In this document: positions 33,882 through 51,917 of the stretch, piece by piece
Layout: every line of letters starts with the position of its first letter
Numbering within the stretch: position 1 is the stretch's first letter
Assembly (NCBI RefSeq): GCF_004364245.1
Contig: NZ_SOAV01000003.1
Span: 434,001-498,000 of the forward strand
DNA from: Streptomyces sp. BK208
GTDB taxonomy: Bacteria; Actinomycetota; Actinomycetes; Streptomycetales; Streptomycetaceae
Length of the DNA stretch: 64,000 nt
Direction: 5' to 3'
The notes under the pieces: model-generated
Databases searched by the model: none
The model's input: only the letters and a program-made list of their open reading frames with translations
What the model was told of the DNA's origin: nothing
Program-made: the position numbers and the translations under genes

Positions 33882-33899
33882 ATCCGGCATATGCCGGAT
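33882..33899. promoter_or_regulatory. Perfect 18-bp palindrome between drmA and the sigma factor
   Basis: ATCCGGCATATGCCGGAT is fully self-complementary and sits 42 bp upstream of drmA and about 105 bp upstream of the sigma-factor ATG. It is the most obvious candidate operator for the island. Confidence 0.7.
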
Positions 33900-34003
33900 G
33901 GCGCCCCTCGTACCGGGAAATCGCTCACATCCAGCCACGGGGAGTGGACGCAGCGTCCCCCTCTCGGGGTCGATTGTCAGTGCCCTGTGTCAAAGTCTCC
34001 CTC

Positions 34004-35602: not shown

Positions 35603-35611
35603 CGGGCGCCG

Positions 35612-36538
35612 CTAGACCTCTGGCCTGATCTTGCTGCCGATGTGGGCGAGGCGGATCGTGCGTTCCTCCGGGACCAGGCGGAAGTGGATGCGGCCGACGC
35701 CCGGCGTGAACCGGGCGTGCAGGTCGAACGTGCGCGTTTCCCCGTCCAGGTCGGTGAAGCGGCACACGCGCTTGCGGGTCTCGCCCTCCGGGCTGACCTT
35801 GCTCTGCCACTCGGGCTCGGCCATGGCCGCCGGGTCCCATGCGGCGACGGCTTCCTCCAGCCGTTCCAGGGATCGGCGCACGGGTACCACCCAGTGCGGG
35901 TTCAGACCGCTGAGCTGACCCTTGACGCGCGGCAGGAAGGTGAGGTGCGGGTAGAGGTCGGCCCGGCTGTCCCAGATCCGCAGGCCGGTGGTGACGCTTT
36001 CCCGCCGTGCCTTCCGGATCCACTCCAGGTGCCCGTCGAGATGCGGCTCGGCGGACAGGTGCCGGACGTCCACGGTGTCGTGCCGCATCTCCAGCGTGCC
36101 CGCGTCGTCCTCGGCGAGTTCGGCGCGCTCCAGGGTGACGTGGTCGGTCTGCCATGGGCGGGCCACCGCGAGACTGACGGCGATGCCGTCCATGAAGTGC
36201 GCGGCACCCAGACCGAGGACGACCCCTCCGTCGTGGCGGTACTCCAAGTGGTCGGCGGCGTCCTCCGCGGGGAAGACGCTCCGCACGGGAGCGCGGCCCT
36301 GTAAGGCCCTCAGGCGCTGCCAGAGGGCGCGGTTGCGCGGGCTGGCGCCGATCCACTTGTTGACGGGGTAGCCCTCGGCGATCTCCAGTGCCTTGACGTC
36401 CACCTCGCTCACGAGGGTGGCGCCTCCGGCGGCCGCGGCGGCACGGACGACGGCCACGAAGTCGGCCATGGCCCGCTCGGCCCGCGCCGGGTCGCAGGCC
36501 GTCCCCCAGGACTTCTCGTTCAGAAACAGCAGTGGCAC
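35612..36538 (-). CDS. Unrecognised protein linked to DUF262/DUF3696 genes
   Basis: 308 residues, GTG start at 36538 with AAGAGG upstream. I do not recognise the family. Visible features: PLLFLNEKSWG near the start, VNKWIGASPRNRALWQRL near residue 80, and GLRIWDSRADLYPHLTFLP near residue 180. The last 50 residues read CRFTDLDGETRTFDLHAR and GRIHFRLVPEERTIRLAHIG, a pattern similar to the end of RelE/HigB-like folds, but this is weak. It follows the DUF3696 ATPase by 33 bp and ends 9 bp from the sigma-factor stop. It is probably the effector or accessory subunit of the DUF262-DUF3696 set (inference). Confidence 0.75.
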   Translation of the reverse strand: MPLLFLNEKSWGTACDPARAERAMADFVAVVRAAAAAGGATLVSEVDVKALEIAEGYPVNKWIGASPRNRALWQRLRALQGRAPVRSVFPAEDAADHLEYRHDGGVVLGLGAAHFMDGIAVSLAVARPWQTDHVTLERAELAEDDAGTLEMRHDTVDVRHLSAEPHLDGHLEWIRKARRESVTTGLRIWDSRADLYPHLTFLPRVKGQLSGLNPHWVVPVRRSLERLEEAVAAWDPAAMAEPEWQSKVSPEGETRKRVCRFTDLDGETRTFDLHARFTPGVGRIHFRLVPEERTIRLAHIGSKIRPEV

Positions 36539-36571
36539 GCTTACCTCTTCCCCCTGTGTCGTCCCGTGCCG

Positions 36572-37720
36572 TCAGTCCAGCAGCCGGTCGAGCGAGTTCT
36601 CCCACTCGTCGAAGAAGCCCTCGGGCCACTGTTCGAGCATGCCGTCCTTGTCGATGCGCGGGGTGACGACCTCGGTGCCCGCCCCGTTGCCGCTGAAGTA
36701 GTGCACGACCGCGTCCTGCGGCTGGAGGACGCCCTGTTTCACGGCGATGCGGACACCGTTCAGCACGTGGTCGCTGTGGGTCTCGACGACCAGCTGCGCG
36801 CCGGTGGCGGCGGCCGCGGACAGCAGTGCCGCCATCCTGCTCTGCCCTTTCGGGTGCAGATGGGCCTCGGGGTTCTCCAGCAGGATCAGGCTCTCGGGCG
36901 TCGCGGTGAGGCAGGCGACCACGACGGGCAGCGCGTAGGTGAGACCGAAGCCGACATTGGTGGGGCGCCGGCGGCGGGTGGCGTTGATGCCGGCGGTGCC
37001 GCCGAAGCCGTAGGACAGGCGGACCGAGTCGGTTCCCTCGATGGGGTCGGTCTCGATGTTGACGCCCGGACACAGCTCCTGCATCCACGCGATCGCCTGG
37101 TCCAGGAGCTGGGGGGAGGTGGCGCCGGGGTGGCGGAGGGGGCCGTCGGGCACCTCCATGGGGACTTCCTGGTCCGTGTGGTGGCGCAGGTAGTTGATGG
37201 TGTGTTCACCGCGCACGCCGAGGAAACCCCGCGCGACGGCGATCTGGTGGGAGCGCGGGTAGGTGACCGCCGGGGTGATGCGGTCGGCGTGCAGGTACTG
37301 GAACGGCTGCTCGGCCAGGTGGGCGCGGACCGATCCCTCCGCCAGCGGCATGACGTCCCGGTCGGGGTGGCGGATGTCGTACGCGGCGGCCCAGGTCCGC
37401 TGCTCGCCGTCTTCCTCGATCACGAAGCCGACGAGTGGCTCGCGGACGGCGGGGAGTTCCTCCACCGGCCCGAAGTCCTCGTGCAGGACGTCCTGTGCGG
37501 TGCCGAGGCTCACCAGGTCGCCGTTGAGCAGCAGCCCGCCTCCGGCGCGCTTGGTCCGCATGAGCATCTGCGTCTCGTACGACTGGCGCAGCAGGCCCAG
37601 CGCCTGCAGGACGCTGCTCTTGCCCGAGGAGTTGAGACCGGTGAGGAGCGTGAGCGGGCCGAGGGGGAGTTCCAGACGCCGGAACGCCTTGAAGTTGATC
37701 AGCGTGATGCGGTTGATCAC
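36572..37720 (-). CDS. AAA ATPase with DUF3696 (OLD/RecF-like)
   Basis: 382 residues. ABC-type ATPase: NFKAFRRLELPLGPLTLLTG leads into Walker A GLNSSGKSSVLQAL (about residue 30), signature/Walker B region LILLENPEAHLHPKGQSRM (about 280) and the H-loop VVETHSDHVLNGVRI (about 310), followed by the short DUF3696 C-terminus. Such ATPases, often paired with nucleases, recur in phage defence systems. GTG start at 37720 overlaps the DUF262 stop (GTGA). No TOPRIM nuclease domain follows, so the partner effector must be elsewhere, perhaps the 35612-36538 protein or DUF262 itself. Confidence 0.86.
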   Translation of the reverse strand: MINRITLINFKAFRRLELPLGPLTLLTGLNSSGKSSVLQALGLLRQSYETQMLMRTKRAGGGLLLNGDLVSLGTAQDVLHEDFGPVEELPAVREPLVGFVIEEDGEQRTWAAAYDIRHPDRDVMPLAEGSVRAHLAEQPFQYLHADRITPAVTYPRSHQIAVARGFLGVRGEHTINYLRHHTDQEVPMEVPDGPLRHPGATSPQLLDQAIAWMQELCPGVNIETDPIEGTDSVRLSYGFGGTAGINATRRRRPTNVGFGLTYALPVVVACLTATPESLILLENPEAHLHPKGQSRMAALLSAAAATGAQLVVETHSDHVLNGVRIAVKQGVLQPQDAVVHYFSGNGAGTEVVTPRIDKDGMLEQWPEGFFDEWENSLDRLLD

Positions 37721-39021
37721 TGCCCGTCCCCGCTCCGCCCCTCGGTGAGCGCTGTCTCCAGAAGCTCCTTGATCGCGTCGAACCGCTTGCGCACCTTCCT
37801 GGCGTCACCGGTGCCCACGGAGATGGCGCGTTCGAACTCCACGTCTTCCATGAGGTGCGCGAAGGCGTCGAGGACGTCGGTCTGCCCCAGCGCCGCACGG
37901 TCGTCGTCGTCAAGTCCGGCGAGGTTGACGGCGACCGCCTCGAAGAGCGCCTTGTTGATGGGTGACTTGCGCTGCTGGTTGTGGCGGTACTTGCGGAAGG
38001 CGTGGGGGCCGAAGATCTCCTCGGCCGCGCGCATCGCCGTGAGGAACTCGGTGCTCAGGCGGTTCTCCTCCGCGCTGTCGAGACGGTTCACCTGGTGCAT
38101 CGCCTCGGCGAGGAACGCGTCGAAGTCACCGGGCTTGTACGCGTGCGGTGAAGTCATCCGGAAGGCCAGGAAGCGCAGGACCATCTCCCGGTCGGCCATC
38201 CGGTCGCCGACGACGCTGTGGCCCGTGGCCCGCTTGAACTCCTCGGTCTCCGCCAGCTCCGCGAGCAGCGTGCGCGCCCGGCCCGAGATGAGCGCGTGCC
38301 GGATCTCCTGCCGGGTCAGGGGCTCACCTCCCGTGTTGATGCGCGCGAAGACGTTGAACATCACCGGCTCCGGAGTACCGCGTCGGATGACGTGGACGAC
38401 GACCTCGGTCTCCCGCAGCCGGATCTGGAGCTTCCCGGACAGGTTCGCGAAGCCGGTGCCCTCGAAGTTGCGCAGGTACTCCAGCCCCGTCAGTTTCAGC
38501 GGGTCGGCGCCGACCGCCTCGGGCTCCAGGAAGCGGGCGATGGACGTGAGGCGCTGGATGCCGTCGACGATGGCCCAACTGCCGTCCTTCTTCTCCGCGG
38601 CGTAGAAGGACGGGATGGGGATGCGCAGCAGCAGGGACTCGATGAGCCGGGACTGCTTGCCGTCGGTCCAGATGCCCGCCTTGCGCTGGAAGTCCGGGGC
38701 GAGGTCGATCATCTCGTTGCGCAGCCGGGACAACAGCAGGTCGACGGTGGTCGTCCGGGTGTCGATGTCGATGTGCTCGGGGTCGAAGGGAGAGGTGATC
38801 TGCTCGATCACCACATCCTCGGCCTCCTCGCGCTCGATGTCGGTCGGCCGGCCGTCGGTGGTGACCTCCACGGAGAACAAGGGGGATTCATGCTCCCCGG
38901 CGTCGGCCGCGGCGTCCTGATACCGCTCGAACACCGACCGTTGGTCCCGTGTACGCCCCTGGCTCTCCTCCAACGCCGCCATTCCTCTGGTCGCCCTCCC
39001 CCTCGTGCCGTACGGCATCAT
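37717..39021 (-). CDS. DUF262 (ParB/GmrS-like) protein
   Basis: 434 residues. DUF262 core at about 95-310: IDLAPDFQRKAGIWTDGKQS RL, IPSFYAAEKKDGSWAIVDG, IQRLTSIARFL, FNVFARINTGGEPLTRQEIR. The DGIQR motif matches the DGQQR NTPase/nuclease motif of SspE and GmrSD-type restriction proteins. The first 90 residues are an acidic, low-complexity stretch. The start is uncertain: the ATG pair at 39018-39021 has no clear ribosome site, while 38982 has AGAGGA but too close. Overlaps the DUF3696 gene by 4 bp. Expected role: DNA-modification sensing or nucleotide-dependent nicking of invading DNA (family knowledge). Confidence 0.85.
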   Translation of the reverse strand: MMPYGTRGRATRGMAALEESQGRTRDQRSVFERYQDAAADAGEHESPLFSVEVTTDGRPTDIEREEAEDVVIEQITSPFDPEHIDIDTRTTTVDLLLSRLRNEMIDLAPDFQRKAGIWTDGKQSRLIESLLLRIPIPSFYAAEKKDGSWAIVDGIQRLTSIARFLEPEAVGADPLKLTGLEYLRNFEGTGFANLSGKLQIRLRETEVVVHVIRRGTPEPVMFNVFARINTGGEPLTRQEIRHALISGRARTLLAELAETEEFKRATGHSVVGDRMADREMVLRFLAFRMTSPHAYKPGDFDAFLAEAMHQVNRLDSAEENRLSTEFLTAMRAAEEIFGPHAFRKYRHNQQRKSPINKALFEAVAVNLAGLDDDDRAALGQTDVLDAFAHLMEDVEFERAISVGTGDARKVRKRFDAIKELLETALTEGRSGDGQ

Positions 39022-39042
39022 CGTGTCCGCTGCGATCGCCCT

Positions 39043-40257
39043 TCAGCCTACCGTCCGTGATCCCGCGGTGACGCCGGAACGATCAGAGCAGTGACGGCAG
39101 GGCGTTGAGGACGACGGCGCCGGGCGGTTCGGCTCCTCGTCCCCGGCCTCGCCCTCCACGGCGGTGGTCGGACCGCCGACGAGGTACTGCATGCCCCGGT
39201 GCAGGAAGTCGCGAAGCGGCGGGCAGATCACGGCCAGGCCGGCCACGCCCGCCGCGGCGAGCAGATCCGGGACCACTCCCCCGCCCGGGAGGAGGAACGC
39301 CCCGCCGAGGAGCCCCACGGCCACCGCGAGCCTGCCCGCGCCGGCCAGCAGGCGGCTGCCGAGCGGCTCGGTCACGGCGTCGGCCGCGCCGGACTCCGGC
39401 ACGTCTGCGAGGAGCCGGGCGTCGACGACCACCAGACTGTCCCGCCTGGATCGCGCACGGCAGCTGTGCCGCAGGGTTGAGGCGACGAGCCGGGACAGGT
39501 CGCGCAGGGCACTGTCGCGGTCTGCTCCCTCACCGAGGAGGTAACGCTGGTTGGCGTCGGCGAGTGCCGCGACCAGTCTCTCCGTACTCGCCCGCACCCG
39601 CTCACGCGTGACGGGCGGCATGGTGCGGGTGCCGTGCCGGGCTTGACCGCGCAGGGCGTTGCAGAGGCGGCCGAACTGCCTGCCGTGGACGTCGAGAGCG
39701 GAGTCCTGGGACCGACGCCGGGACGGCATGAGCAGCAGCTCCAGGAAGCCGACCGCCTCCACGGTGACGACTCCGGCCGCGTCGGAGACGGCGACGGCCC
39801 GTACGTCGGCGACCATGAGCGTGACGGAGACGGCACCGAAACCGGCGATGGCGACGCACATCCAGAACGGGGTGACCGTGGTGCGGTGCAGTGAGGCCAG
39901 CCACCAGAAGGGAAGCACCGCGAGCAGGACAGGCACCACCTGGAGAAGTGCCGATACGCACCGGCCGGCGACGATACGGTGCCACCGGTCGACGAGTTCC
40001 CCCTTGTCCGGCCCGTCCTGCGCCGGTACGCCCCGCCCTTCCAGCTCGGCGAGCAACGCCTCGACGCGCCTCTCGCACGCTGTGCGCCGGATGCGCCGCA
40101 GGCCGGGCATCCGGTACACCCCGCCGCCAAGCACACGGGTGCGGGTCCGCCACAGCACGGCGATCCACACCGCCTCGAAGAAGGTCCACCAGCCCCAGAG
40201 GAACGCGACGTTCGCGAAGTGCGTGCGTGTGATGACGCTCAGCGTCGCAGACGCCAC
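39043..40257 (-). CDS. Membrane protein of unknown function
   Basis: 404 residues, GTG start at 40257. Hydrophobic segments near residues 15-38 (FANVAFLWGWWTFFEAVWIAVL), 103-125, 132-150, and a C-terminal pair near 315-355 suggest four to five membrane spans with a roughly 150-residue cytoplasmic middle. No family recognised. It lies 6 bp after the HATPase gene and 21 bp before DUF262, all on one strand, so it is probably in their operon. Membrane proteins are common effectors in defence operons, but its ordinary-looking cytoplasmic domain gives no direct support. Confidence 0.7.
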   Translation of the reverse strand: MASATLSVITRTHFANVAFLWGWWTFFEAVWIAVLWRTRTRVLGGGVYRMPGLRRIRRTACERRVEALLAELEGRGVPAQDGPDKGELVDRWHRIVAGRCVSALLQVVPVLLAVLPFWWLASLHRTTVTPFWMCVAIAGFGAVSVTLMVADVRAVAVSDAAGVVTVEAVGFLELLLMPSRRRSQDSALDVHGRQFGRLCNALRGQARHGTRTMPPVTRERVRASTERLVAALADANQRYLLGEGADRDSALRDLSRLVASTLRHSCRARSRRDSLVVVDARLLADVPESGAADAVTEPLGSRLLAGAGRLAVAVGLLGGAFLLPGGGVVPDLLAAAGVAGLAVICPPLRDFLHRGMQYLVGGPTTAVEGEAGDEEPNRPAPSSSTPCRHCSDRSGVTAGSRTVG

Positions 40258-40263
40258 TGACAG

Positions 40264-40740
40264 TCAGCCCAGGACGACTTCGCACCAGACGGTCTTGGTG
40301 TACGGGGCGTGCGTGGCCGTTCCCCAGTGAGTGGACAGCGCCTCCACGAGGAGTAGCCCCCGGCCGGAGTCGACGTCTGCAGACGGCGGAGCGAGCGCGC
40401 CGGGGCGGGGAGGGAAGCGGTCGGCGCGGGCGTCCGTCACCTCGATACGGAGGGCGGGGCCCTGCGGGTGGAGGCTCAGCCGCAGGTGGAAGTCCCGACC
40501 GGACACCCGGCCGTGCCGTACGGCGTTCGCGGCGAGTTCGGCGACGAGCAGTGCCGCCGTGCGGTTGGCCTCGGTGTCGTACGACCACCCCCAGCCGTGG
40601 AGTTGTTCGGCGGCGAGACGACGGGCGAGGCGGGCACCTCGGGGAGTGGCCGAGAGGCGGATGGTGAAGGGGCGGGGCGCGTCGGCGGGTTGGGCGCGCT
40701 CGGGGCGCGGTGCCCGGGAGTGGGCAATATCGGCGTTCAT
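40264..40740 (-). CDS. HATPase (RsbW/SpoIIAB-like) regulatory protein
   Basis: 158 residues. GHKL ATPase domain with N-box AELAANAVRHGRV (about residue 68), G1-like EVTDARADRFPP and G2-like DVDSGRGLLLVEAL (about 125). These single-domain kinases are anti-sigma-factor-like and very numerous in Streptomyces, usually next to XRE and DUF397 genes, as here. ATG at 40740 lacks a clear ribosome site. It is first in a minus-strand run that continues into the membrane protein and DUF262 genes, and divergent from the XRE regulator. Whether it acts on the island's sigma factor is an open and testable idea. Confidence 0.82.
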   Translation of the reverse strand: MNADIAHSRAPRPERAQPADAPRPFTIRLSATPRGARLARRLAAEQLHGWGWSYDTEANRTAALLVAELAANAVRHGRVSGRDFHLRLSLHPQGPALRIEVTDARADRFPPRPGALAPPSADVDSGRGLLLVEALSTHWGTATHAPYTKTVWCEVVLG

Positions 40741-40801
40741 GTCACTCAGCGTGGTCGGCCGTCCCTACCCTGACCAGTAACGGCGGCGGTACCCACCGTC
40801 A

Positions 40802-40834
40802 CTGTCCGGTCGCTGTCCGGCTCTGTCCGGACAG
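40802..40834. promoter_or_regulatory. CTGTCCGG repeats and 12-bp palindrome in the HATPase/XRE gap
   Basis: CTGTCCGG occurs at 40802-40809, 40813-40820 and 40823-40830, spaced 11 and 10 bp (one helical turn). The last copy is part of the perfect palindrome CTGTCCGGACAG (40823-40834). Likely binding site of the divergent XRE regulator. Confidence 0.6.
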
Positions 40835-40898
40835 TGCCGCGTGACGCGGTGCGCCGGTGAGGGGTTGAGCACGGGCGGCATGCGGAGGTGTCGGAGAC

Positions 40899-41765
40899 GT
40901 GGGCGTGACGGGGCAGGGATCGCAGGGCGGTGACGGGATGGAGCCGTACGGCGCGGACGACGAGGAGTCGGCGGCGGTACTGCGGACGGTCGGCAGGGTC
41001 ATCAAGACGTGCCGTGAGCGGAAGGGGCTCCGCCAGGCCGAGTTGGGGACGGCGATCGGGTACAGCGAGGAGCAGGTGTCCTCGGTGGAACGGGGGCGGC
41101 GGGCGCCGAGTCCGACGTTCCTGGAGGCGGCGGACAGGGCTCTGGACGCCGGTGGGCTGCTCGCCGGGCTGCGGAAGGACGTGGAGCAGGCCCGGTACCC
41201 GAAGAAGGTGCGGGATCTGGCGAAGTTGGAGGCGGAGGCGGTGGAGATCTGCGCCTACGACAACTCCGTCGTCAACGGGCTCTTGCAGACGGAGGAGTAC
41301 CTGCGGGCGGTGTTCGGGTCACGGCGGCCGGCGTTTTCGGAGGAGCAGGTGGAGCGGCTTGTCGCTGCGCGGCTGGCGCGACAGTCGGTCATCGCTGGAA
41401 AGCAGATGATCCCGTCGTTCAGCTTCGTGCATGATGAAGCGACGCTGCGGAGGCGAGTCGGGGGCAGAATGGTGCTACGCCGACAGCTCGAACGACTGTT
41501 GGAAGTCGGGCAGATGCGGAACGTGGAGATCCAGGTGCTTCCCATGGATCGTGAGGACAACGCCGGTCTCGGCGGCCCCTTCCACCTACTGCGGCTGAAC
41601 GAGGGCACCACGGTGGGGCACAACGAGGTTCAGCGGACCAGTCGACTGATCTCCGAGCCCAAAGAGATCCAGATCCTCGAACTCCGCTACGGGGTCCTCC
41701 GCGCTCAGGCCCTCCCGCCGCAGGAGTCGCTGGCCTTCGTCGAGAAAGTCCTTGGAGAGACATGA
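40899..41765 (+). CDS. XRE-family regulator with DUF5753 (Scr1-like)
   Basis: 288 residues from GTG 40899 (GGAGG about ten bases upstream); an ATG at 40938 is a shorter alternative. HTH at about 30-80: VIKTCRERKGLRQAELGTAI, GYSEEQVSSVERGRRAPSPT. The rest is the DUF5753 domain (NGLLQTEEYLRAVFGS, RLARQSVIAGKQ, RQLERLLEVGQMRNVEIQVLP). Its stop overlaps the DUF397 start (ATGA). Together with the divergent HATPase this is the WhiJ-type regulatory trio that recurs across Streptomyces genomes and acts in developmental control; some are described as toxin-antitoxin-like. The CTGTCCGG repeats upstream are its probable operator. Confidence 0.88.
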   Translation: MGVTGQGSQGGDGMEPYGADDEESAAVLRTVGRVIKTCRERKGLRQAELGTAIGYSEEQVSSVERGRRAPSPTFLEAADRALDAGGLLAGLRKDVEQARYPKKVRDLAKLEAEAVEICAYDNSVVNGLLQTEEYLRAVFGSRRPAFSEEQVERLVAARLARQSVIAGKQMIPSFSFVHDEATLRRRVGGRMVLRRQLERLLEVGQMRNVEIQVLPMDREDNAGLGGPFHLLRLNEGTTVGHNEVQRTSRLISEPKEIQILELRYGVLRAQALPPQESLAFVEKVLGET

Positions 41766-42032: not shown

Positions 42033-45000
42033 TCAGGTGGGCGGCGGAGTCCACTTGCCCTGGTCGATGGCCGCCTGGAGCCGCGCCGAGAAGTAGGCGT
42101 GTGCCTCTCGCATCTCGGCTTCGCGGTTGGCCTTGTAGAAGGGGGGCGTGTAGCCCTCCGGCGGGTCCGTGCGCTCGCCGTCGAAGTGGGCGCGGAGGTG
42201 CTCGTAGTGTTCCTTGGTTTGGCCGTGGCCGTAGGTGTAGCGGTTTCCTGCGATCCGGCGTTCGCGGGCATCGAACCAAGTCACGGCGTCGAAGTCCTGC
42301 AAAATTGGAAAGCGGGCACGGTACATGGCGATGAGTGCATCGGCGTCGACGCCGAGCCAGACGGCGACCAAAGCATCAACCTCAACCTGTGCTGCGCGAC
42401 GAGTCCGTTCGCTGCGCAATGGAGTGGCATGGGTCCATCCCGGGCCGACCTCATGCAGGGGCTGCAACTCAGGCCACTTGCACGCCCACGGCTCGTACGC
42501 CGGCCAGGTCGGGTCATAGAGCTCAGACCAAATCTCTCCATAGGCCGACGTTAGGCAATTGAGGCGCAGGGTGCGCAGCAACAGGGCCGACTCCAGGGGG
42601 TGACCCTGCGATGGGGCAGGCATGCGCCGCGCCGGTGCCTTTTTCAGATGACCCACGCCTGTCGTGCGCAGGAGGTAGTCCACGGGCAGGCCGGCCCAAA
42701 AGCCTGCCGTGAGCGCGGTCAAGCGGTTATCACCCATGTACATGCTGTGCACCAAGTCGATGTGAGCCGCACCTGGCGGAATGAGCGCCACGTACAAGCT
42801 CCGCTCAGTATCAGGTGCGATCATCTCGCGCCACGCCACGCGGTAATACTTCGTGTAGGAATGCGTCGACCGCCCCACGAAGTAACGATCAACATCGTCG
42901 GAGTCGATCTCGTTCTCCGGCACGTCTCGCGCCTCCGCCAGCACACGTCGCGCCTGTGCTGCCGCCTCCTCCGACCCCCGCAGTCGCATGAACCCGCCCT
43001 TGTCGAACCATTTATCCTGCTTGTCTGCGTACTTCTCCGGAGTCGCGACGCGTACGTATTCCGTCTCCGGTACCGCATCGTCGGAAACCGCCAGGAGGTT
43101 CAGGCCTAGCACCTCGCCGCTGCCCTGGCTGGGCTGCTTAAACAGCGGGTTCGACAACCCGAGTTGTGGACCCCGAAGGATGACGTCATCCCACCTTTCA
43201 GGCCGGAATACTGCACCGTCTTCGCTCGGGTGGTTGTAGTCGATCACGCCATCGCGCTTGGCCAACGTCTCGTTGTAACCCGACGAAATCGGTGGTAGTT
43301 CCCCCACCTTCAACTGATAGTTGGCAAGCGCTTCGATCGCCGCTCCCTCCGCCACACTGACCGGTGACAGCAACCTCCCCTGCTCCACCACCTGGTCCTC
43401 ATTCCCGGTTAGCCGCTGCCACCGCTCCAACGTCGCACGATCCACCCGGATAATCCGCTTCTTGTGCGGCCGCTCATCCCATGTTTCCCCATATCGCACA
43501 CCCGGGTCCGGACCAGAACCGTCGTGCTGCGCAGACAATCGCAACGCGTCAACGGAGAACAACCAAGAGAGGTGGTCAAAGCCGATCTCGCCCTCAACTC
43601 CGTAAATGTGCAGGCCAAAGTGACTCGACCTGCCAACCGGCGGCGGGAAGAAGCGGTTGCCCGAATTGACGAATTCACCATGCACACGCAATCGCTTGTA
43701 GGCAGCCGCCCGCAGCAGCCCGTCCCTGTCGCCATTGAAGTGCGAATCCGGATGGATGAGACCGACCGTGCCGTTTCGCGCGGCGTGGGCCCAGGTCTGA
43801 CACATGAAAGCGCGGTACAGGTCGGGGCGCTTACCGTCGAGAATCGGGTACACGACTGGAGAACCGAGCTGGTTCGACACTCCCATGATGGTGACGAGTT
43901 CGTTCACGAAGTAGGCCCGCGCCTCGGCCCTCTGGAACAGCTCAGCCACTCGGGCCTTACGCACCGCCGCACTCGGCTTCTCGGTGAGCATGAACCACGG
44001 ATCGCGCTCGGCGAGAACAGGGTCCTCCTTCCACTCAGGCCTGACCCACGGCGGATTCCCCACCTGCAAGTCGAACCCCCCGGCCTCCCCCGCGAAGACG
44101 TGCGCGAAGTGCAGCTCCCAGTGGAAGAAGCCCATCCCCCCGTCCGCCCCGGCGTCGTCCCGGTCCTCGGACCCGGCCACGTCCTCCACCGTGTCCAGCC
44201 ACGGGAACCGCGCCTTGAGGCGGAACGGCGAGTCCATGCCCATGAACGCGTCCAGTTCGACCTCGTAGTCGCGCAGAGCGGCAAGGCTCGGGAACTCGGC
44301 GACCAGTGAGTCCGCCGGCACGTCCGTCGCACCGAGCGCGCACTCCAGGAAGTCGATCCAGTCGTCCAGCGTGGCGAGGGGAATGACCTCACGCCGCCCC
44401 TTCGGCCGAGCGGCGGTCCGCTTCCGCGCCGGCTTCTTGTCCCCTGCGGCCGAAGCAGACCCGGTGTCCTCCATCTCCAACTGCTGCGGCAGCCCGTCGT
44501 CGAACAGGCTCTCCTTCACCCACGCCTGGTCCCCCGGCGCGGGCCCGGACGGGTCCACCGTCGCCTCAACCGAGGGCTGCCCGGCTCGGGCGTCGTCCCC
44601 GTCGCCGTACGACACCGCCTCGGAACCGTCCAGCTCCCCCACCCGGTCCAGCGGCCAGAACCACAACGCGCACCATACGTCCATGACGGTCTTCAACCGC
44701 CAGTACGGCGTCCCCGGACGCGTGAGGTCGCCGTAGACGACCTCCTTCGGCACCGCCTGCTCCGGATGCTCCAGCCAGTCCGCGCCCCAGACGTCGATCT
44801 CCCGGGAGATCTCCCGCTCGGACTGCTTCAGCCGCTCGATCACCAGTTTCCACAGGAACTCGGCCCTCCGGGCGACCCCCTGGAGCCGGCGCCGCTGGGC
44901 CACCGTCTTCGGAGCGCGCAGGACACCGGACCGCCACTTCTCCATCCGCTGGACGGCCGCCTTGTCCAGTTCCTCGGCGATCTTCTTGGACTTGGCGTCC

Positions 45001-47420
45001 GCGACCACCGCTCCCCAGCCCAACGCGGGCAGGAGGAAGTGGTGGACCGAGCCCTCCGGCAACGCTCCGTCACGGAAGGGGAGTTCCCTCGGAGCGAGCG
45101 TGTCCTTCTTCGACAGCCACTTGCCCTTGCCCAGCGCGTCCTTGTCGTAGATCCTGCGCCCTGCGCCGACCAGCGAGTTCCCGCGCCGCAGATGCAGGCC
45201 GAACCACGGGGCCTGCATCCCCGGGTGCATGGTGTTCAGCCACAGCGACACCTCCGCCAGCTCCACCGCCGTGGCGTTGAGGTCGACGCCGTACGCGTTG
45301 TGCAGGGCGACGTAGGCCTTGGCCTTCTGGAGTTCCACCGTGCGCTGGTCGGGCGCGATCTCCACGCCGGTCTCGGCCTCACGGCGCCGCAGGTACTCCG
45401 CGGCGACCTGGTCGACCGCCTCGTTGAGGAAGGCACCGGAGCCGAGGGCGGGCTCGCAGATCTTCCACTCCAGCAGCTCCCGCGCGGACGTCACCTCGCC
45501 GTTCTGGTCGAGGCGGTGCTTGAGCGCCAGTTCGACCGTGACTTCGGTCAGGGACTCCGGCGTGTAGTACGAGGCCGTGTTCTCGCGGTCGCGTCCCGCC
45601 AAGCGGTAGACGAACGACCCCGGCGGGTACTCGGCCCGCTCCGTGAGGCCCGTCTCCTCGTTCTGCCGCTGGACGAACACCTCGCTCGGATAGTCGTTCG
45701 CCCGGGACTCCGGGATCATCCAGCTGCCCTTGGCGGGGTCCCCGCCCTTCGCGACCTCGAAGAGGGTCTCGTCGGCGATGAAGCCGGTGTACGACATCAG
45801 GCCCTCGTACACGGCGCCGAGCTGGTTGATGCCGAGCTTGGCGTAGGAGATGAAGCCTCCGCGCTCGCCCCTGCGGCCCTTGGTCAGCATCAGGCGGCGC
45901 AGCACCTTGTGCAGGGTGGCGTTGCGCAGCCGGGTGTCGAAGTGCTCCGGTCCGGTGGCCGGGTCGTCCTCGTCGTGGGCGGGATTGGGCACTGCCGGGC
46001 CGATCAGGCGGATCGCGCCCGGCTCGAAGAGGTCGGAGCGCAGCGGCTCGAAGCGCAGGCCCACGTCCTCGCTGCGGCGGGCCCGACGGGCCTGCTCGAA
46101 GCGACGGGCGCGCAGGGCCAGCTGGGCCTCCGTCAGTTCTTCGCCCGTCGCCGACGGCTGCGCGGCTTCCGCAGCCGCTGCCACGCTGTCCGTGTCCCGC
46201 TCCGCCCGGTCCTCCGGCTCGGTGCCGTACGGGCGGTGGCCCTTGTTCACCATGCGGGTGAGGAGGTCGACCGACTGGTACAGGTGAAAGCCGTCCCGGG
46301 CCGTGGGGCCGACCAAGGTCTTCACCGCCAGGTCACCCAGACGCTGAAGGCCGTAACCGGCGCCGTACTCGGGATAGTCCGAGGGGAGGATGCCCAGCTC
46401 CGGGCGGGCCTCGGCGTAGAGCAGGAACAGGATGCGGTAGAGGTAGCGCAGCGATTCGCGGGTCAGGCGGCGGGCCAGGCGCTGGGGGTCGTCGAGGTCG
46501 GCGGGGGTCACGCCCTGCTCGGCCAGGCGCTCCAGGACGGCCTGGGCGATCAGCTCGACGGAGTCCTTCAGGCCCTCGCGGAGTTCCGTCGAGACGCCCA
46601 CGGCGTGTTTGGCCGACTTGGAGACGAGATCGTCCAGCGGGTTGGTACCCCCTGTCTCCGGGACGCGGAGCGAGTCGGCGCCGAACAGGGCTGCCACCGT
46701 GTCGAGTTCGCCGCCCGGGCGGTCGTCCCGGCGTTCCAGGGCGGAGTCGAGGCTGACGGCGAGGTAGCGGCCCTCGCTCCAGGCGGTCCGGTCGGCGAGG
46801 ACGACGACTCCGCCGACCAGGACGAGGACGTAGCGCGGTGGCTCGTCGGCGGCGAAGAGGAAGCGGACAAGGGTGTCGGCATCGGTGATCGGCTCGCCCT
46901 GGGGGATGTCGACCGGGTGCAGGAGCCGGCCGGGGCCGGCGGGGTCCCGGGCGGCGTCCGGTTCGGCGGCCCAGCCGCAGGCGAGGGCGACCAGGCCGGG
47001 TTCGGCGTGGGCGACCGGGATGTCGTAGGTGCGGCCGGCGCGCTCGATGGTCAGCGTGGCCGGCGCGGGGGTGTAGCCGAGGGCGCGCAGCACCCGGTCG
47101 TGGAGGTCCGCGGCCGTCTTGGTCCAGCGGGCGTCGTCGTAGGTGCGCCACCCCGATTCCTCGTCGGGAGCGTCCACCTCCGCCTGGGCGCGCTCGGCGA
47201 GGAAGGCACGGTCGGTGAAGTAGGGGGCGCGCAAGGCGCGCAGGCCCTGGCGGGGGGTGAGGAGGCGCGGCTCGTCCTCCGGTTTCCTGCTCTCCTCGGC
47301 CTCGTGTTCGGCCCAGCGGGCCAGCAGTCCGTCCTTCGCCTTGAGATCCTTGGGGAGGACTTCGGCGAGGTAGTGCGCGGAGAAGTAGTCGCCGTGGTTG
47401 ACCAGCGAGTCGTACGTCAC
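42033..47420 (-). CDS. drmMI: DISARM class 1-type adenine-specific DNA methyltransferase (DrmMI-like)
   Basis: 1795 residues, GTG start at 47420. N-terminal 600 residues are helical and of unclear role. MTase motif I is CEPALGSGAFLNEAVDQVA (about residue 660) and the catalytic motif IV is LQVGNPPWVRPEW (about 1122), NPPW being the N6-adenine signature; a long insertion separates them. From about residue 1140 onward (bases 42033-44000) is the presumed target-recognition half. Base use changes here: 43441-43500 has 34 G/C of 60, against 45 of 60 at 46441-46500. In class 1 DISARM, DrmMI marks self DNA. It follows drmD by 61 bp. An Eco57I-like or PglX-like enzyme is the alternative label. Confidence 0.83.
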   Translation of the reverse strand: MTYDSLVNHGDYFSAHYLAEVLPKDLKAKDGLLARWAEHEAEESRKPEDEPRLLTPRQGLRALRAPYFTDRAFLAERAQAEVDAPDEESGWRTYDDARWTKTAADLHDRVLRALGYTPAPATLTIERAGRTYDIPVAHAEPGLVALACGWAAEPDAARDPAGPGRLLHPVDIPQGEPITDADTLVRFLFAADEPPRYVLVLVGGVVVLADRTAWSEGRYLAVSLDSALERRDDRPGGELDTVAALFGADSLRVPETGGTNPLDDLVSKSAKHAVGVSTELREGLKDSVELIAQAVLERLAEQGVTPADLDDPQRLARRLTRESLRYLYRILFLLYAEARPELGILPSDYPEYGAGYGLQRLGDLAVKTLVGPTARDGFHLYQSVDLLTRMVNKGHRPYGTEPEDRAERDTDSVAAAAEAAQPSATGEELTEAQLALRARRFEQARRARRSEDVGLRFEPLRSDLFEPGAIRLIGPAVPNPAHDEDDPATGPEHFDTRLRNATLHKVLRRLMLTKGRRGERGGFISYAKLGINQLGAVYEGLMSYTGFIADETLFEVAKGGDPAKGSWMIPESRANDYPSEVFVQRQNEETGLTERAEYPPGSFVYRLAGRDRENTASYYTPESLTEVTVELALKHRLDQNGEVTSARELLEWKICEPALGSGAFLNEAVDQVAAEYLRRREAETGVEIAPDQRTVELQKAKAYVALHNAYGVDLNATAVELAEVSLWLNTMHPGMQAPWFGLHLRRGNSLVGAGRRIYDKDALGKGKWLSKKDTLAPRELPFRDGALPEGSVHHFLLPALGWGAVVADAKSKKIAEELDKAAVQRMEKWRSGVLRAPKTVAQRRRLQGVARRAEFLWKLVIERLKQSEREISREIDVWGADWLEHPEQAVPKEVVYGDLTRPGTPYWRLKTVMDVWCALWFWPLDRVGELDGSEAVSYGDGDDARAGQPSVEATVDPSGPAPGDQAWVKESLFDDGLPQQLEMEDTGSASAAGDKKPARKRTAARPKGRREVIPLATLDDWIDFLECALGATDVPADSLVAEFPSLAALRDYEVELDAFMGMDSPFRLKARFPWLDTVEDVAGSEDRDDAGADGGMGFFHWELHFAHVFAGEAGGFDLQVGNPPWVRPEWKEDPVLAERDPWFMLTEKPSAAVRKARVAELFQRAEARAYFVNELVTIMGVSNQLGSPVVYPILDGKRPDLYRAFMCQTWAHAARNGTVGLIHPDSHFNGDRDGLLRAAAYKRLRVHGEFVNSGNRFFPPPVGRSSHFGLHIYGVEGEIGFDHLSWLFSVDALRLSAQHDGSGPDPGVRYGETWDERPHKKRIIRVDRATLERWQRLTGNEDQVVEQGRLLSPVSVAEGAAIEALANYQLKVGELPPISSGYNETLAKRDGVIDYNHPSEDGAVFRPERWDDVILRGPQLGLSNPLFKQPSQGSGEVLGLNLLAVSDDAVPETEYVRVATPEKYADKQDKWFDKGGFMRLRGSEEAAAQARRVLAEARDVPENEIDSDDVDRYFVGRSTHSYTKYYRVAWREMIAPDTERSLYVALIPPGAAHIDLVHSMYMGDNRLTALTAGFWAGLPVDYLLRTTGVGHLKKAPARRMPAPSQGHPLESALLLRTLRLNCLTSAYGEIWSELYDPTWPAYEPWACKWPELQPLHEVGPGWTHATPLRSERTRRAAQVEVDALVAVWLGVDADALIAMYRARFPILQDFDAVTWFDARERRIAGNRYTYGHGQTKEHYEHLRAHFDGERTDPPEGYTPPFYKANREAEMREAHAYFSARLQAAIDQGKWTPPPT

Positions 47421-47481: not shown

Positions 47482-50439
47482 TCAGGCGCGGTCGAGGACG
47501 GCCAGGACGCGCAGCAGCGGGCGGCCGGTGGCGGTGAGCTTGTCGGCCAGTTCCGTCTGGTCGCGGATGGTGTCCTCGATCACGCGGCCGGGCAGCAGGG
47601 CCTCCTGCTGCCAGCGGCCGAGGCGTGCACGGTAGTCGTCGAGCTGGGCGCTGATCTGCCGGGTCCAGGCGTCCTTGCGTTCCTCCAGGTGCTCGCGGGC
47701 GGCGGCGACGGCAGCCGGGACGAGCCTCTGAAGGGCGGGCAGGTCACTGGGTGCTGCCGGATTCGCCATGTCGGGGCCGACGCCGGCCTCCGTCAGGGCG
47801 TCCGGCATCGGCACCACCTCGGCGGTGCCGGGCAGACCGCGGACGGCCATCCACTCCACGACCGTGGGGCGGCCCAGCTTGTTGGAGTAGATGCCCTGGA
47901 CGAGGAAGACCGGGCCGGTCGCGCCGGGGGTGAGGAGGACGGGTGCCTGCTGGCGGCCGAGCTGGACGAGGACCTTGTCGACGAGCCATTCCACCAGGGG
48001 ATGGATGTCGGTGAGGTAGCCCACGGCGGGCCAGCTGGAGCCGGACTTGCCTCGGGCCTCGTCCAGACTGTGCTGTCCGAGGCGCCGATCGAAGGTGACC
48101 CGGAGCCGGTCCTTCAGCTTCTGCTCCCGCAGATAGTCGGGGGGCAGGACGTCCAGGCGGTGCAGGAGATCGGGTGCCTTCGCGGTGGCGAGACTCAGGT
48201 AGGGGGAGGACTCGCCGTGCGGGAGCTTCTGATGGTGCTCGGAGAGGTCGAGCACGTCGTGCGGGCGTTCGTCGTAGACCTCGTCGAGGGCCGCACGGAC
48301 GAACGCCTCGGTGTCGCCGCCGAACAGGGTAGGGACCTGTGCCCTGGGCACCGGCCGGTGCTCGGGCAGGACGGACGACTGGGAGAAGAGCGCGGTCAGC
48401 GGATCGCCCTGGGTGGGCGAACCGGCCAGCGACTCCTCGACGGTGCGGCCCGCGAGAAGATCCCTGATCAGGCGGCGTTCCTCCTCCTCCGCGCGGTACA
48501 GGCCGGTGACCGCCTCGGCGGTACCGTCCAGGCGATAGGCCTCCTCCTCGCGTTCGAGGAGTTTCTCGGCGACCGTGCGGTCGTCCTTCGCGCCCTGGGT
48601 AGCGGAGTGCAGGATCAGTGCCCGGAACCGGGGGTTGTGCTTCTGGCCGTAGCGGTCGATGCGGCCGTTGCGCTGCTCGATGCGGATCAGCGACCAGGGG
48701 ATGTCGTAGTGCACGAGGTCGTGGCACTGGCGGTGCAGGTTGACGCCCTCGGAAGCCACGTCACCGGTGAACAGGATGCGCACGGGGTGGTGGGCCAGAC
48801 CGAACGCCTCCACGACCTCCATCTGTTCCTTGTCGGACAGCCCGCCGTGCATGATCCGCACGGCCTGCTTCGCCTGGCCCTCGGTGAATCCGAGCCTGTC
48901 CGGCACGACCTTGGCGAGCCACTTCAGCGTTTCGACGCGTTCGGAGAAGACGACGACGCGCGTGGCCGAACCGGGGCGTACTCCCATGGCGGAAAGCTGC
49001 TCCACGAGGGCGTCCAGCTTCGACGAGTCGCCCCGTGTGCCGGCCTCCCCGATGGCGGACGTGAGCGCCCGCAGGCGCTCCAGTGCGGCGAGTTCCGTGG
49101 CGATGCGAGTGGCCGCCGGGGTGCCGGGGGCGGTCTTCGCCGTCTTGTCGTTCAGGGTGCTGATCCGGGTGGTCACGGTCTTGGCGAGCGCCCGGTGGGA
49201 AGAGAGGAAGGCCTTCAGGAGCGTGTACGGGAAGAGGCGGTCCTCGGTGGGCGCCGCACGGCCGGACGGCGCGGTGCCGAACTCGGTGGAGGTGTCCGGC
49301 GCCGGGATCCAGTGCCGCGTCAACTCGGCGAAGATCCGTTCCTCGGCCTCGGTGGCGGTGCACGGCACGGAGACGGTGGGATCGCGGTCGGCCCACTCCT
49401 TGCCGATCTGGTCCCGTACCTCGGGGTGGACCTTGGTCCGGCGGATGAAGAGGTGCCCCAGGTCCTTCTCGGCGTCGTAGTCGCTCGGGTCCGCGATCGC
49501 GGCCGGGTCGAGGAGGCTGATCAGTTCGGCGAAGGACCTGCCGTCCCCGTTGTGCGGAGTGGCGCTGGCCAGGAGCAGGGCGTCGGTGTTCGGGGCGAGG
49601 ACGCGTGCCAGGGCGTTGCGCTGGCTGCCCCGGTTGATGAGGTTGTGCGACTCGTCGATGACGACCGCGTCCCACTGGATCCTCTCCAGGTGGTGGCGGT
49701 ACTGGCCGATGTTCTTGAGAGTGTCGACGGAGACGATGACCCGCTTGTAGTGGGTGAAGGGGTTGCGGCCGGCCGGGATCTCCCGCTGGATGCGCTGGAT
49801 ACCGACCGAGTCCAGGCGGATGAGCGGGATCGAGAAGCGGGTCCACAGCTCGTGCTGGAACTGCTCCAGGACGTGCTGCGGAGTGACGACGAGGATGCGC
49901 TCGCCCCGGCCGCGGCGGATCAGCTCGGCCAGGGTGAGGCCGATCTCCAGGGTCTTGCCGAGGCCGACGACGTCGGCGATGAGCAGTCGGGGGCGCAGGT
50001 TGGCGAGAGAGAGGGCCAGCTCGGCGGGGCGCTGCTGGTAGCTGAGCGGGTCGACGAGGAAACGGTCGGCGAGCGCCAGTCCGCGTTCGGTCTGCGGGAG
50101 CGGGGTCTTGCGCAGCAGAGCCTCCAGGAAGAGACGGCTGCGGCGGAAGTGGTCGGTGGGGTCTTCGACCAGCTCCGTGTCCTCGGGGTCCAGAAGGCGG
50201 ACCCCGTCACCGGCCAGGCGCTCGATCTCGGTGAAGAAGACGGCCGGCTCGTCCCGGACGAACTCCGAGACGCCCACGGCCTCGATCTTGGCTCCGTCAC
50301 GGCTCGGGCTGACGCTCTTCACCAGCCATTCCTCGTCTCGGACGAGGATCTGGGCCCCCGGCGGGAACCTCATCTCGGAGGCGTCCGCCGCCTCAGAGGT
50401 CACCGACTGCTCCGGCCGCCCGTCCGGCTGGTGGGTCAC
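47482..50439 (-). CDS. drmD: SNF2-type helicase DrmD-like
   Basis: 985 residues from GTG 50439, which has GGAGG eight bases upstream; an ATG at 50508 would add 23 residues but has no ribosome site. N-terminal PPGAQILVRDEEWLV is a small SH3-like beta segment seen in DrmD/RapA-type proteins. Motor motifs: Walker A IADVVGLGKTLEIGLTLA (about 130), DESH box AVVIDESHNLINRGSQ (about 230), SATPHNGDGRSF, and helicase C motif VI IRIEQRNGRIDRYGQKHNP (about 585). A 350-residue C-terminal part follows. In class 1 DISARM, drmD lies directly before drmMI, as here. RapA-like remodelling ATPase is the conservative description. Confidence 0.83.
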   Translation of the reverse strand: MTHQPDGRPEQSVTSEAADASEMRFPPGAQILVRDEEWLVKSVSPSRDGAKIEAVGVSEFVRDEPAVFFTEIERLAGDGVRLLDPEDTELVEDPTDHFRRSRLFLEALLRKTPLPQTERGLALADRFLVDPLSYQQRPAELALSLANLRPRLLIADVVGLGKTLEIGLTLAELIRRGRGERILVVTPQHVLEQFQHELWTRFSIPLIRLDSVGIQRIQREIPAGRNPFTHYKRVIVSVDTLKNIGQYRHHLERIQWDAVVIDESHNLINRGSQRNALARVLAPNTDALLLASATPHNGDGRSFAELISLLDPAAIADPSDYDAEKDLGHLFIRRTKVHPEVRDQIGKEWADRDPTVSVPCTATEAEERIFAELTRHWIPAPDTSTEFGTAPSGRAAPTEDRLFPYTLLKAFLSSHRALAKTVTTRISTLNDKTAKTAPGTPAATRIATELAALERLRALTSAIGEAGTRGDSSKLDALVEQLSAMGVRPGSATRVVVFSERVETLKWLAKVVPDRLGFTEGQAKQAVRIMHGGLSDKEQMEVVEAFGLAHHPVRILFTGDVASEGVNLHRQCHDLVHYDIPWSLIRIEQRNGRIDRYGQKHNPRFRALILHSATQGAKDDRTVAEKLLEREEEAYRLDGTAEAVTGLYRAEEEERRLIRDLLAGRTVEESLAGSPTQGDPLTALFSQSSVLPEHRPVPRAQVPTLFGGDTEAFVRAALDEVYDERPHDVLDLSEHHQKLPHGESSPYLSLATAKAPDLLHRLDVLPPDYLREQKLKDRLRVTFDRRLGQHSLDEARGKSGSSWPAVGYLTDIHPLVEWLVDKVLVQLGRQQAPVLLTPGATGPVFLVQGIYSNKLGRPTVVEWMAVRGLPGTAEVVPMPDALTEAGVGPDMANPAAPSDLPALQRLVPAAVAAAREHLEERKDAWTRQISAQLDDYRARLGRWQQEALLPGRVIEDTIRDQTELADKLTATGRPLLRVLAVLDRA

Positions 50440-50580
50440 GCTCGCCGCCTCCGTCTCCTGCACACGCCGGCCACGGGAAGTGGCCGAAATACCGGGCAAG
50501 TCTTCCATGCCGGAGGATGTCCGCGCAGGTCACTGCGGTAATCCTGCGGCGCGACACGAGACGTCCTCGCCGCGGCCGGA

Positions 50581-51768
50581 TCAGCGGGCCCCACTGCACG
50601 CCGGGACGAACGCCGCGTTCCTCGCATATGCCGTACGCAGGTCCTCGGCGATGGCATGCGCAGTGGCCGCATCGGGTGTGCGCCCGCCCGTCGAGCGCCT
50701 GCGCGGCGCGGCCGGAACCGGGGGCGGGGCGAGAGTGACCGTGCGTACCTCGGCGGAGCCCGGCAGGACAGGCACGGGACCGGGAGGTGACACGGACGGG
50801 ATCGGAAGCCCTTCGGCGGGTTCCGGGGAGGGTTCGACGAGCGTCGGCTCGTACTCGGCGATCGGCCCCGGCGGCAGCACCGGCCGACCGTCGACATGCG
50901 GCGCCGTCCGCTCGATCAGCCGCTGCCGGGCCTGGCGGGCGGTGAGGCCCGAGTCGGTGAGGACGGTCACCAGACCACCGGTCACCTCGATGAGAGACGG
51001 ACGGTCGACCGGGTCGTGGGCGAGCATCGCGGACACCATGGGGAGCAGGTGGCCGGGCAGGCCGGTCAGATCGGGCGCCTGGTCCGGGTCACCGATCCTG
51101 GACGCCACCGCGAGCCAGTTCGTGCCGTCGTACGGGTAGTGGCCGGTGGCCGCGAAGAGCAGCACCGCGCCGAGGGCGTAGACATCGGCGGCCGCGGTCA
51201 GGTGATGGTTCCCCTCCGCCTGCTCGGGCGGCATGCACAGTACGCTGCCGACCACGACTCCGGTCGCGGTCAGCGTCGTACGCCGCTCCGCGAGGACCGC
51301 GAGTCCGAAGTCGATCACCTTGGGCCCGTCCGGCCCCAACAGGATGTTCTGCGGTTTGAGGTCGCGGTGCAGCAGCTCGGCCAGGTGGACGGAGGTGAGC
51401 CCCTCGGCGAGCAGCGCTCCGAGGCTCGCGGTCTCGACGAGCGGCAGTGGGCCGTGATCTTGGACGTGGCGCAGGAGATCGGGTCCGGGGACGTAGTCGA
51501 CGGCCAGCCAGGGCCGTTCGGCCAGCGGATCGGCACCGGCGAACGCGGCGACGCGCGGACCGAACACCTTCTTCAGGTTTTCCACCTCGAGCACGAACCG
51601 GCTGCGGGTCTCGGCGTCGAGTACGGACGCCTTGATCACCTTGACGCCCACCAGCTGGCCGGCGGGTGACTCACCCAGATACACCCGGCCCATGCCGCCG
51701 GATCCGATCCGGCCGCGGAGGGCGTAGCCCCCGATGTGCGTGGGGTCGTCACTCCTCAGCGGTTCCAC
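50581..51768 (-). CDS. Soluble eukaryotic-type Ser/Thr protein kinase
   Basis: 395 residues, GTG start at 51768. Complete kinase core: glycine loop GSGGMGRVYLG (about 19-29), catalytic Lys VKVIK, catalytic loop LHRDLKPQNILL (about 138), DFG as IDFGLAV and the P+1 region MPPEQAEG. After residue 275 comes a proline-rich tail and a short helical end; no membrane segment or PASTA/beta-propeller sensor is present, unlike PknB. It is 141 bp upstream of the drmD GTG on the same strand, so co-transcription with drmD-drmMI is possible. Kinases occur in some defence systems (PglW, Stk2), but they are also common in Streptomyces. Confidence 0.87.
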   Translation of the reverse strand: MEPLRSDDPTHIGGYALRGRIGSGGMGRVYLGESPAGQLVGVKVIKASVLDAETRSRFVLEVENLKKVFGPRVAAFAGADPLAERPWLAVDYVPGPDLLRHVQDHGPLPLVETASLGALLAEGLTSVHLAELLHRDLKPQNILLGPDGPKVIDFGLAVLAERRTTLTATGVVVGSVLCMPPEQAEGNHHLTAAADVYALGAVLLFAATGHYPYDGTNWLAVASRIGDPDQAPDLTGLPGHLLPMVSAMLAHDPVDRPSLIEVTGGLVTVLTDSGLTARQARQRLIERTAPHVDGRPVLPPGPIAEYEPTLVEPSPEPAEGLPIPSVSPPGPVPVLPGSAEVRTVTLAPPPVPAAPRRRSTGGRTPDAATAHAIAEDLRTAYARNAAFVPACSGAR

Positions 51769-51848
51769 AGCAACCCAACTCCCCCTGAGCGTCCGGTACC
51801 CGGCCCGCGCGGCACCCGCACGGCCGGTGGGCCACAGTGTAGAGCGAC

Positions 51849-51881
51849 GGCCCGCCCCCGCAACGAGGACGGCGGCGGGCC
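51849..51881 (-). terminator. Hairpin after xlnC
   Basis: GGCCCGCC at 51849-51856 pairs with GGCGGGCC at 51874-51881 (17-base loop), 36 bp beyond the xlnC stop and upstream of the kinase start. It would insulate the kinase-drmD-drmMI run from xylanase transcription. Confidence 0.5.
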
Positions 51882-51917
51882 CGCTACAGGGAGGGAGCTG
51901 ATGGCACCGGGCAGAGG

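Follow-up and report, generated by a model that had tools for sequence, protein, structure and literature searches.

Mosaic alleles point to two exchangeable cassettes in the putative specificity region of ArmB, the methyltransferase of ARMADA Type II

Introduction

ARMADA Type II, described in a preprint (PMC12458937), comprises four genes in the order armA-armB-armC-armD, including one for a methyltransferase with an NPPW motif, and mutation of N971 in the E. coli ArmB protein abolished defence. Its ArmA is a BrxHII/RapA-like SNF2 helicase, ArmB a PglX-like methyltransferase with GxG and NPPW motifs, ArmC a YprA-family helicase that has a Zn domain of the DUF1998 type and a nuclease at its C-terminus, and ArmD a GajB-like UvrD helicase carrying a fused RelE-like domain. 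The word 'methylation' is absent from the main text of the preprint, the one place where target recognition comes up deals with Zn-binding motifs in the helicases, and the discrimination of self from non-self by ARMADA does not appear to be addressed there.

The exchange of recognition domains has long been known from Type I and Type III systems (PMC3983042, PMC5198162). HsdS of Type I systems contains two variable cassettes with a conserved connector between them, which are shuffled separately, and domain movement within HsdS of H. pylori makes use of flanking repeats (PMC3983042, PMC5198162). In BREX systems, PglX/BrxX consists of a methyltransferase domain followed by a C-terminal recognition region, and PglX contains a single target-recognition domain (TRD, residues 662-849) followed by spacer helices and a conserved C-terminal region (PMC11341690).

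Here we describe the ArmB methyltransferase encoded in a 64,000-nt stretch of DNA from Streptomyces sp. BK208, hereafter the window (contig NZ_SOAV01000003.1, positions 434,001-498,000 of the forward strand), and compare it with its homologues. As in PglX, a methyltransferase domain is followed by a candidate C-terminal recognition region. Like HsdS, ArmB appears to carry two variable cassettes (A and B) separated by a conserved connector; unlike HsdS, it has them within the methyltransferase polypeptide itself, with no separate specificity subunit. The two-cassette form of ArmB appears to be new within the literature searched: the titles and abstract openings covered, which include few subscription papers, held no description of cassette exchange in ArmB or of a family-wide step in third-position GC content (GC3) at its catalytic motif.

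Gene content of the ARMADA Type II locus

The window retains the gene order of ARMADA Type II (Table 1), with ~14 kb of other genes separating armB and armC, an interval suggestive of a hotspot for nested genes within the ARMADA operon. The top PADLOC model for the armB product was REase_MTase_IIG (PDLC03611, 894 bits), compared with 172 bits for the best DrmMI model, and Pfam Eco57I matched it with 47 bits. On these scores we rejected a DISARM drmMI label, corresponding to the name drmMI-like used in a preliminary description of this DNA; for the helicase, NCBIfam DrmD reached 296 bits against a cut-off of 610. Genes for DrmA and DrmB are present ~8 kb further along in the window. Judged by the model scores and by its orthologues, which occur in the ARMADA Type II order armA-armB-armC, the methyltransferase is best filed as ARMADA Type II ArmB. 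It shares 30-32% identity with E. coli ArmB, and the asparagine of the NPPW motif is residue 971 in the E. coli homologue L050. Type IIG enzymes have an N-terminal PD-(D/E)XK nuclease in the same chain; the Pfam matches of the window protein included no nuclease domain, and Methylase_S, the Pfam family of the HsdS TRD, gave no match at E 5 or E 1. In profile-profile comparison, ArmB matched Streptomyces Type IIG-like NPPW methyltransferases over the catalytic and C-terminal regions (E 5.7e-39, ~23% identity), and the SAM region alone aligned with Streptomyces PglX. Furthermore, the nuclease family PF18741 scored 20.4 bits in ArmC, under the cut-off of 38.2, and no RelE family was found among the nine Pfam families listed for ArmD up to E 5.

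The order kinase-SNF2 helicase-methyltransferase is repeated in 10 loci from named genomes and on two Streptomyces plasmids. The upstream kinase distinguishes the Streptomyces loci from ARMADA Type II as described in the preprint, the main text of which does not contain the word 'kinase' (PMC12458937). A kinase gene also precedes armA in L002-L011, L048 and L049 and was not seen in E. coli L050 or Tsukamurella L051. A YprA helicase of ~2200 residues is encoded directly after armB in L005, L007, L008, L009, L011, L048 and L049 and after nested genes in L003, L004 and L006, while the loci L002 and L010 end before YprA. The E. coli locus L239 encodes WP_000937974.1, the YprA protein named for ARMADA Type II in the text of the preprint (PMC12458937). 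Between armB and armC, L003 contains the HTH-to-Nsn part alone and seven other loci contain nothing. A Tsukamurella plasmid (L051:2237-20969) carries DrmA-like and DrmB-like genes immediately before homologues of armA-armB-armC, a mixture of DISARM and ARMADA that resembles the arrangement in the window.

Table 1. Features of the ARMADA Type II locus and of armB in the window
Feature	Position	Strand	Remarks
armD, UvrD-family helicase	18744..20711	-	UvrD domain; start uncertain
armC, YprA-family helicase with MrfA Zn-binding domain	21011..27793	-	DEAD, Helicase_C and MZB domains
Genes between armB and armC	27759..41765		HTH/DUF5753, HATPase, NsnA/B/C, MzaA-like (opposite strand), DrmA, DrmB, AAA/UvrD_C-like
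armB, ARMADA Type II adenine methyltransferase, PglX/YeeA-like	42033..47420	-	1795 aa, open frame
Conserved tail, codons 1745-1795	42036..42188	-	GC3 0.92; proposed 3' recombination arm
Block of raised divergence from the S. rochei orthologue, codons 1127-1752	42165..44042	-	identity 0.749 within the block and 0.896 elsewhere
Best-fit low-GC3 block, codons 1121-1725	42246..44060	-	5-codon grid; GC3 0.745 inside, 0.931 outside
Cassette B, codons 1519-1670, second exchangeable half of the putative specificity region	42411..42866	-	best-fit diverged block, S. rochei vs S. griseoviridis
Cassette A, approximately codons 1141-1500, first of the two exchangeable halves of the putative specificity region	42921..44000	-	
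Catalytic motif NPPW, codons 1122-1125	44046..44057	-	aligned to N971 in E. coli ArmB
SAM-binding motif CEPALGSGAF, codons 655-664	45429..45458	-	unchanged across an 11-sequence alignment
armA, SNF2/BrxHII-like helicase	47482..50508	-	SNF2 and Helicase_C domains; DrmD/BrxH/HmaA PADLOC models
Protein kinase gene preceding armA	50581..52806	-	kinase also found before armA in L002-L011, L048 and L049

Base composition of armB and its homologues

The lowest-GC stretches of 1000 nt and 2000 nt in the window both fall in the 3' part of armB. The preliminary description had counted 34/60 G or C at 43441-43500, 36/60 at 42301-42360 and 45/60 at 46441-46500, all of which are exact, and 60-nt blocks contained on average 37.8 G or C in 42033-44000 (n=32) compared with 42.7 in 44001-47420 (n=57; Mann-Whitney P 3.6e-9). 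GC3 drops from 0.933 (codons 1-1120) to 0.745 (codons 1121-1725) and then climbs back to 0.914 (codons 1726-1795). The boundary was correctly placed at the NPPW motif, as the best-fit low-GC3 block starts one codon ahead of it, but the low GC ascribed to the whole C-terminal third does not reach the end of the gene. GC1 drops at the boundary as well (from 0.733 to 0.664), while GC2 is flat (0.471 and 0.466). With a log-likelihood gain of 57, the GC3 step of armB ranks first among the 15 window genes scored. Among 59 mechanically called genes of at least 500 codons, taken from a 400-kb part of this genome, three exceed its raw score; their low blocks begin at ORF codons 1, 1 and 26, and over-extended ORF starts are the likely cause, because mechanical calls often take in non-coding sequence at or near such positions.

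The step is shared across the family. GC3 is lower in codons 1141-1735 than in codons 61-1130 in all 71 actinobacterial orthologues (mean difference 0.18), the same dip is present at four-fold sites in 71/71 (mean 0.21), and the dip of 0.185 in the window gene is average, with 34 of the 71 orthologues exceeding it. L118 (split reading frame) and L113 and L117 (duplicates of L005 and L011) were left out before this count, and L023 and L070 (same genome as L003), G166 (over two contigs) and further ArmB matches from a search of 392 Streptomyces genomes were not used. Homologues from other phyla (two from E. coli, four from Alphaproteobacteria and three from Cyanobacteriota) show the dip in eight of nine cases, and their GC3 mostly recovers in the tail. 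In the AT-rich cyanobacterium Aulosira, three segments of the block, each 100 codons long, have a GC3 of 0.15-0.16; the sole homologue lacking a dip is that of Cylindrospermopsis. Other Streptomyces methyltransferases of the Eco57I family behave similarly: 36 loci were picked from search matches, three of which gave no usable frame, and GC3 is lower after the motif in 32 of the 33 used, namely 19/19 IIG-like (mean 0.165) and 13/14 PglX-like enzymes (mean 0.07). The same applies after NPPW to all nine aligned Type IIG-like NPPW methyltransferases.

Since the dip is shared by orthologues and by other methyltransferases, low GC after the catalytic motif alone can neither date nor prove a swap here. 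Dating from base composition was rejected on these grounds, and the terms 'recent' and 'foreign', which the preliminary description had drawn from GC content, do not follow from it. More generally, the fixed GC3 step cautions against taking low GC in part of a methyltransferase gene, on its own, as a sign that something happened recently in the genome concerned.

Composition also varies differently on the two sides of the motif. GC3 is correlated between the two backbone halves (0.83) and between the two block halves (0.63), with a value of 0.04 between backbone and block (n=70; L010, truncated, and L062, with an outlier backbone, were left out before the correlation and pair counts), and its standard deviation is larger in the block (0.083) than in the backbone (0.037). 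If a foreign recognition domain of lower GC had been imported once and recently, into the window gene alone, this would agree with a block composition that is uncorrelated with its own backbone and with the sharp boundary in both GC3 and identity at NPPW. Set against the dip in every actinobacterial orthologue, among which the window gene is average, and in eight of nine distant homologues, AT-rich Aulosira included, such an import is largely refuted as the cause of the GC dip. Furthermore, a closer donor was absent among the matches listed from a DNA search of the 392 Streptomyces genomes, and we regard a single import as very unlikely. Phage records gave no match to the window protein block, and none of 30 candidate stretches from viral contigs searched with an ArmB profile was confirmed.

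Divergence among actinobacterial alleles

The window gene (W) was compared with its orthologues in S. rochei (L002) and S. griseoviridis (L003). Nucleotide identity between W and S. rochei falls from ~90% to 75% at codon 1127, as the preliminary description had anticipated in looking for a sharp drop near base 44000, and recovers past codon 1752. The corresponding divergence block has a log-likelihood gain of 96.5, compared with a maximum of 24.6 over 20 shuffles; the best-fit low-identity block between W and S. griseoviridis covers codons 931-1706 and is wider on the 5' side. Synonymous divergence (dS) between W and S. rochei is 0.34 in codons 1-1135, 0.88 in codons 1141-1500, 0.93 in codons 1501-1735 and 0.32 in the tail. 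In the same four segments, dS is 0.40, 0.88, 1.22 and 0.20 between W and S. griseoviridis and 0.35, 0.47, 0.82 and 0.27 between S. rochei and S. griseoviridis, with a sharp difference in the last pair that is confined to cassette B.

A uniformly raised silent rate would not produce this three-way pattern. It bears on the alternative that no exchange took place and that the specificity region evolves fast by vertical descent, under diversifying selection and relaxed codon constraint. That dS and low GC3 run together along armB is in line with such a process, and relaxed codon constraint could account for part of the raised dS; cassette A of W is also monophyletic with its counterparts in the backbone sisters S. 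rochei and S. griseoviridis (tree support 0.999). However, the three backbones are about equidistant (dS 0.34-0.40), yet cassette A diverges by 0.88 from W and by 0.47 between the other two, and dS of cassette B is high in all three strain pairs. Together with the E. coli alleles described below, these values make vertical descent without exchange very unlikely.

Cassette B of W has a weakly conflicting history according to its tree, whereas cassette A appears to be a diverged allele of the same type. Cassette B falls with L052, L099 and L102 (support 0.577), inside a group with a support of 0.93 that contains L003 but not L002. Its protein identity is 0.78 to L052, 0.70 to L002 and 0.68 to L003, while its nucleotide identity is no higher to L052 (71%) than to L002 (72%).

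Among 45 actinobacterial pairs with a backbone nucleotide identity of at least 88%, which share sequences and hence are not independent, 31 lose over 10 points of identity in A as well as B, nine in B only and two in A only. Conservation is uniform across the boundary in the remaining three close pairs, and is not so for the window gene. The Streptomyces plasmid genes L048 and L049 are 97% identical in the backbone, 44% in cassette A and 51% in cassette B, with 83-93% identity over the last ~45 codons. Pairwise identity is correlated at 0.97 between the backbone halves, at 0.53-0.55 between the backbone and either A or B and at 0.72 between A and B, and in 70 sequences the nearest neighbour agreed in 45 cases between the backbone halves, in 12 between backbone and A, in 18 between backbone and B and in 23 between A and B. 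Because the correlation between A and B exceeds that of either with the backbone, the two cassettes seem often to be exchanged together in actinobacteria. Given this correlation and the 31 joint drops, their independence rests mainly on the E. coli alleles and on the pairs that differ in B only.

By a stricter measure, which demands a four-fold divergence of the block more than twice that of the backbone, 38 of 71 pairs pass, these pairs again sharing sequences and not being independent; the pairs of W with S. rochei and with S. griseoviridis fail it, at 1.7-fold each. The ArmB genes L059 and L060 show the reversed pattern, with a four-fold divergence of 0.11 in the specificity region and 0.24 in the backbone, as though one set of cassettes had been distributed among diverged backbones.

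Mosaic ArmB alleles in E. coli

At least 489 of 5426 E. coli genomes contain a megablast match (≥80% coverage) to the ArmB gene of plasmid pPSJ-12_1. We compared 13 E. coli alleles, made up of 12 matches picked for differing coverage, and hence not at random, minus one, plus two plasmid alleles; L231, an armB copy broken by an IS3 element, was excluded. Protein identity among the 13 is 96.5-99.9% in the backbone, 48-86% in the block (codons 1001-1480) and 95-100% in the tail. At 90% nucleotide identity they contain 10 types of cassette A and eight types of cassette B in 13 combinations; none of the three pairs sharing A shares B, and none of the six pairs sharing B shares A. L050 and L232, for example, are 99-100% identical in A and ~52% in B. 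Four-fold divergence for L236-L241 and L238-L241 is 0.005 and 0.012 in the backbone compared with 0.314 and 0.521 in the block. For the ArmB family, vertical descent without exchange is refuted by these alleles.

Cassette B of E. coli (codons 1340-1450) maps to codons 1529-1640 of W, within the block found independently in Streptomyces (codons 1519-1670). Exchange also extends beyond the block: in backbone codons ~650-900, L229 and L240 contain segments where identity is 80-91%, and 0.29-0.52 of four-fold sites differ when the tails of L240 and L241 are compared with those of the other E. coli alleles. The B type of L232 is present at ≥80% coverage in 48 of the 5426 genomes. The 18 full-coverage matches listed divide between the annotations methyltransferase (eight) and hypothetical protein (10), and several in the second set belong to O145 strains, like strains whose ArmB carries that annotation. 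Among the plasmid matches listed for one E. coli block, 12 relatives comprised 10 annotated methyltransferases and two without annotation, and no free-standing cassette was seen.

Proposed model of cassette exchange

We consider it likely that the specificity region of ArmB consists of two exchangeable cassettes between conserved arms and that recombination in the flanks reshuffles them. Alleles with near-identical backbones carry cassettes so diverged, silent sites included, that exchange must have occurred, and some pairs differ in cassette A alone or in cassette B alone. The swapping of recognition regions by recombination that the preliminary description had proposed is supported by silent-site divergence and mosaic alleles, but not by base composition.

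In the proposed model, codons ~1121-1750 would form the DNA-specificity region, flanked by the NPPW segment as 5' arm and the final ~50 codons as 3' arm and divided by the connector. Cassettes would be swapped by allelic homologous recombination between ArmB genes that meet in shared hosts, on plasmids or in islands, with crossovers in these three conserved parts, where identity is high. Each cassette may read part of the target, as suggested by their position after the catalytic motif (as in PglX), the profile similarity to IIG-like enzymes and the precedent of HsdS. Exchange would then alter the methylated 'self' motif, and hence the phages restricted, while the catalytic core and the contacts with partner proteins stay in place. 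Related bacteria could thus probably change which sequence is marked as self and leave the enzyme otherwise as it is. Neither Pfam nor PDB yielded a match that would identify a target-recognition fold in the block, searches of PDB with the sequence and profile of ArmB gave no result, and AlphaFold2 models of residues 596-1795 and 1135-1760 were unusable (mean pLDDT 39.4 and 40.5).

In E. coli, GC3 drops from ~0.63 to 0.27-0.49 in 13/13 alleles, the two cassettes having the lowest values and the connector mostly intermediate ones. Selection on low GC3 itself, through slower translation while the recognition domain folds or through an open transcript, would operate independently of exchange and would explain why the dip occurs in nearly all hosts examined and in the direction of AT, why the tail returns in most of them and why other methyltransferase families show it too. 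It accords less well with a dip that in E. coli is strongest in both hypervariable cassettes and eases partly in the connector that separates them, with the greater spread of GC3 in the block than in the backbone and with the one distant homologue that has no dip, and we think it unlikely, though a serious rival. Where sequences turn over fast and codon selection is weak, AT-biased mutation can give rise to AT-rich silent sites. Accumulation of this kind, supplemented by imports, probably makes the AT-rich silent sites of ArmB a standing property of the cassette pool; turnover and AT-biased mutation are preferred over an import pool of intermediate composition because the dip occurs even in AT-rich hosts.

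A broader reading, which we put forward tentatively and at somewhat less than even chances, is that ArmB carries a two-part combinatorial reading head, the parts of which are shuffled separately in Actinomycetota and Pseudomonadota, and that an AT-rich silent-site signature marks recognition regions driven by exchange. If so, many methylation specificities could arise from few parts, and the silent-site signature at the catalytic motif could be used to find such regions from sequence. Natural alleles with a ~99% common backbone and one differing cassette represent ready-made reagents for assigning cassettes to bases.

In the E. coli allele L242, the cassette region (L242:3358-4700) reaches a GC3 as low as 0.10 in a 50-codon stretch, compared with 0.63 in the backbone. 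Its closest plasmid relatives among the matches listed are E. coli ArmB genes, with at most 57% protein identity.
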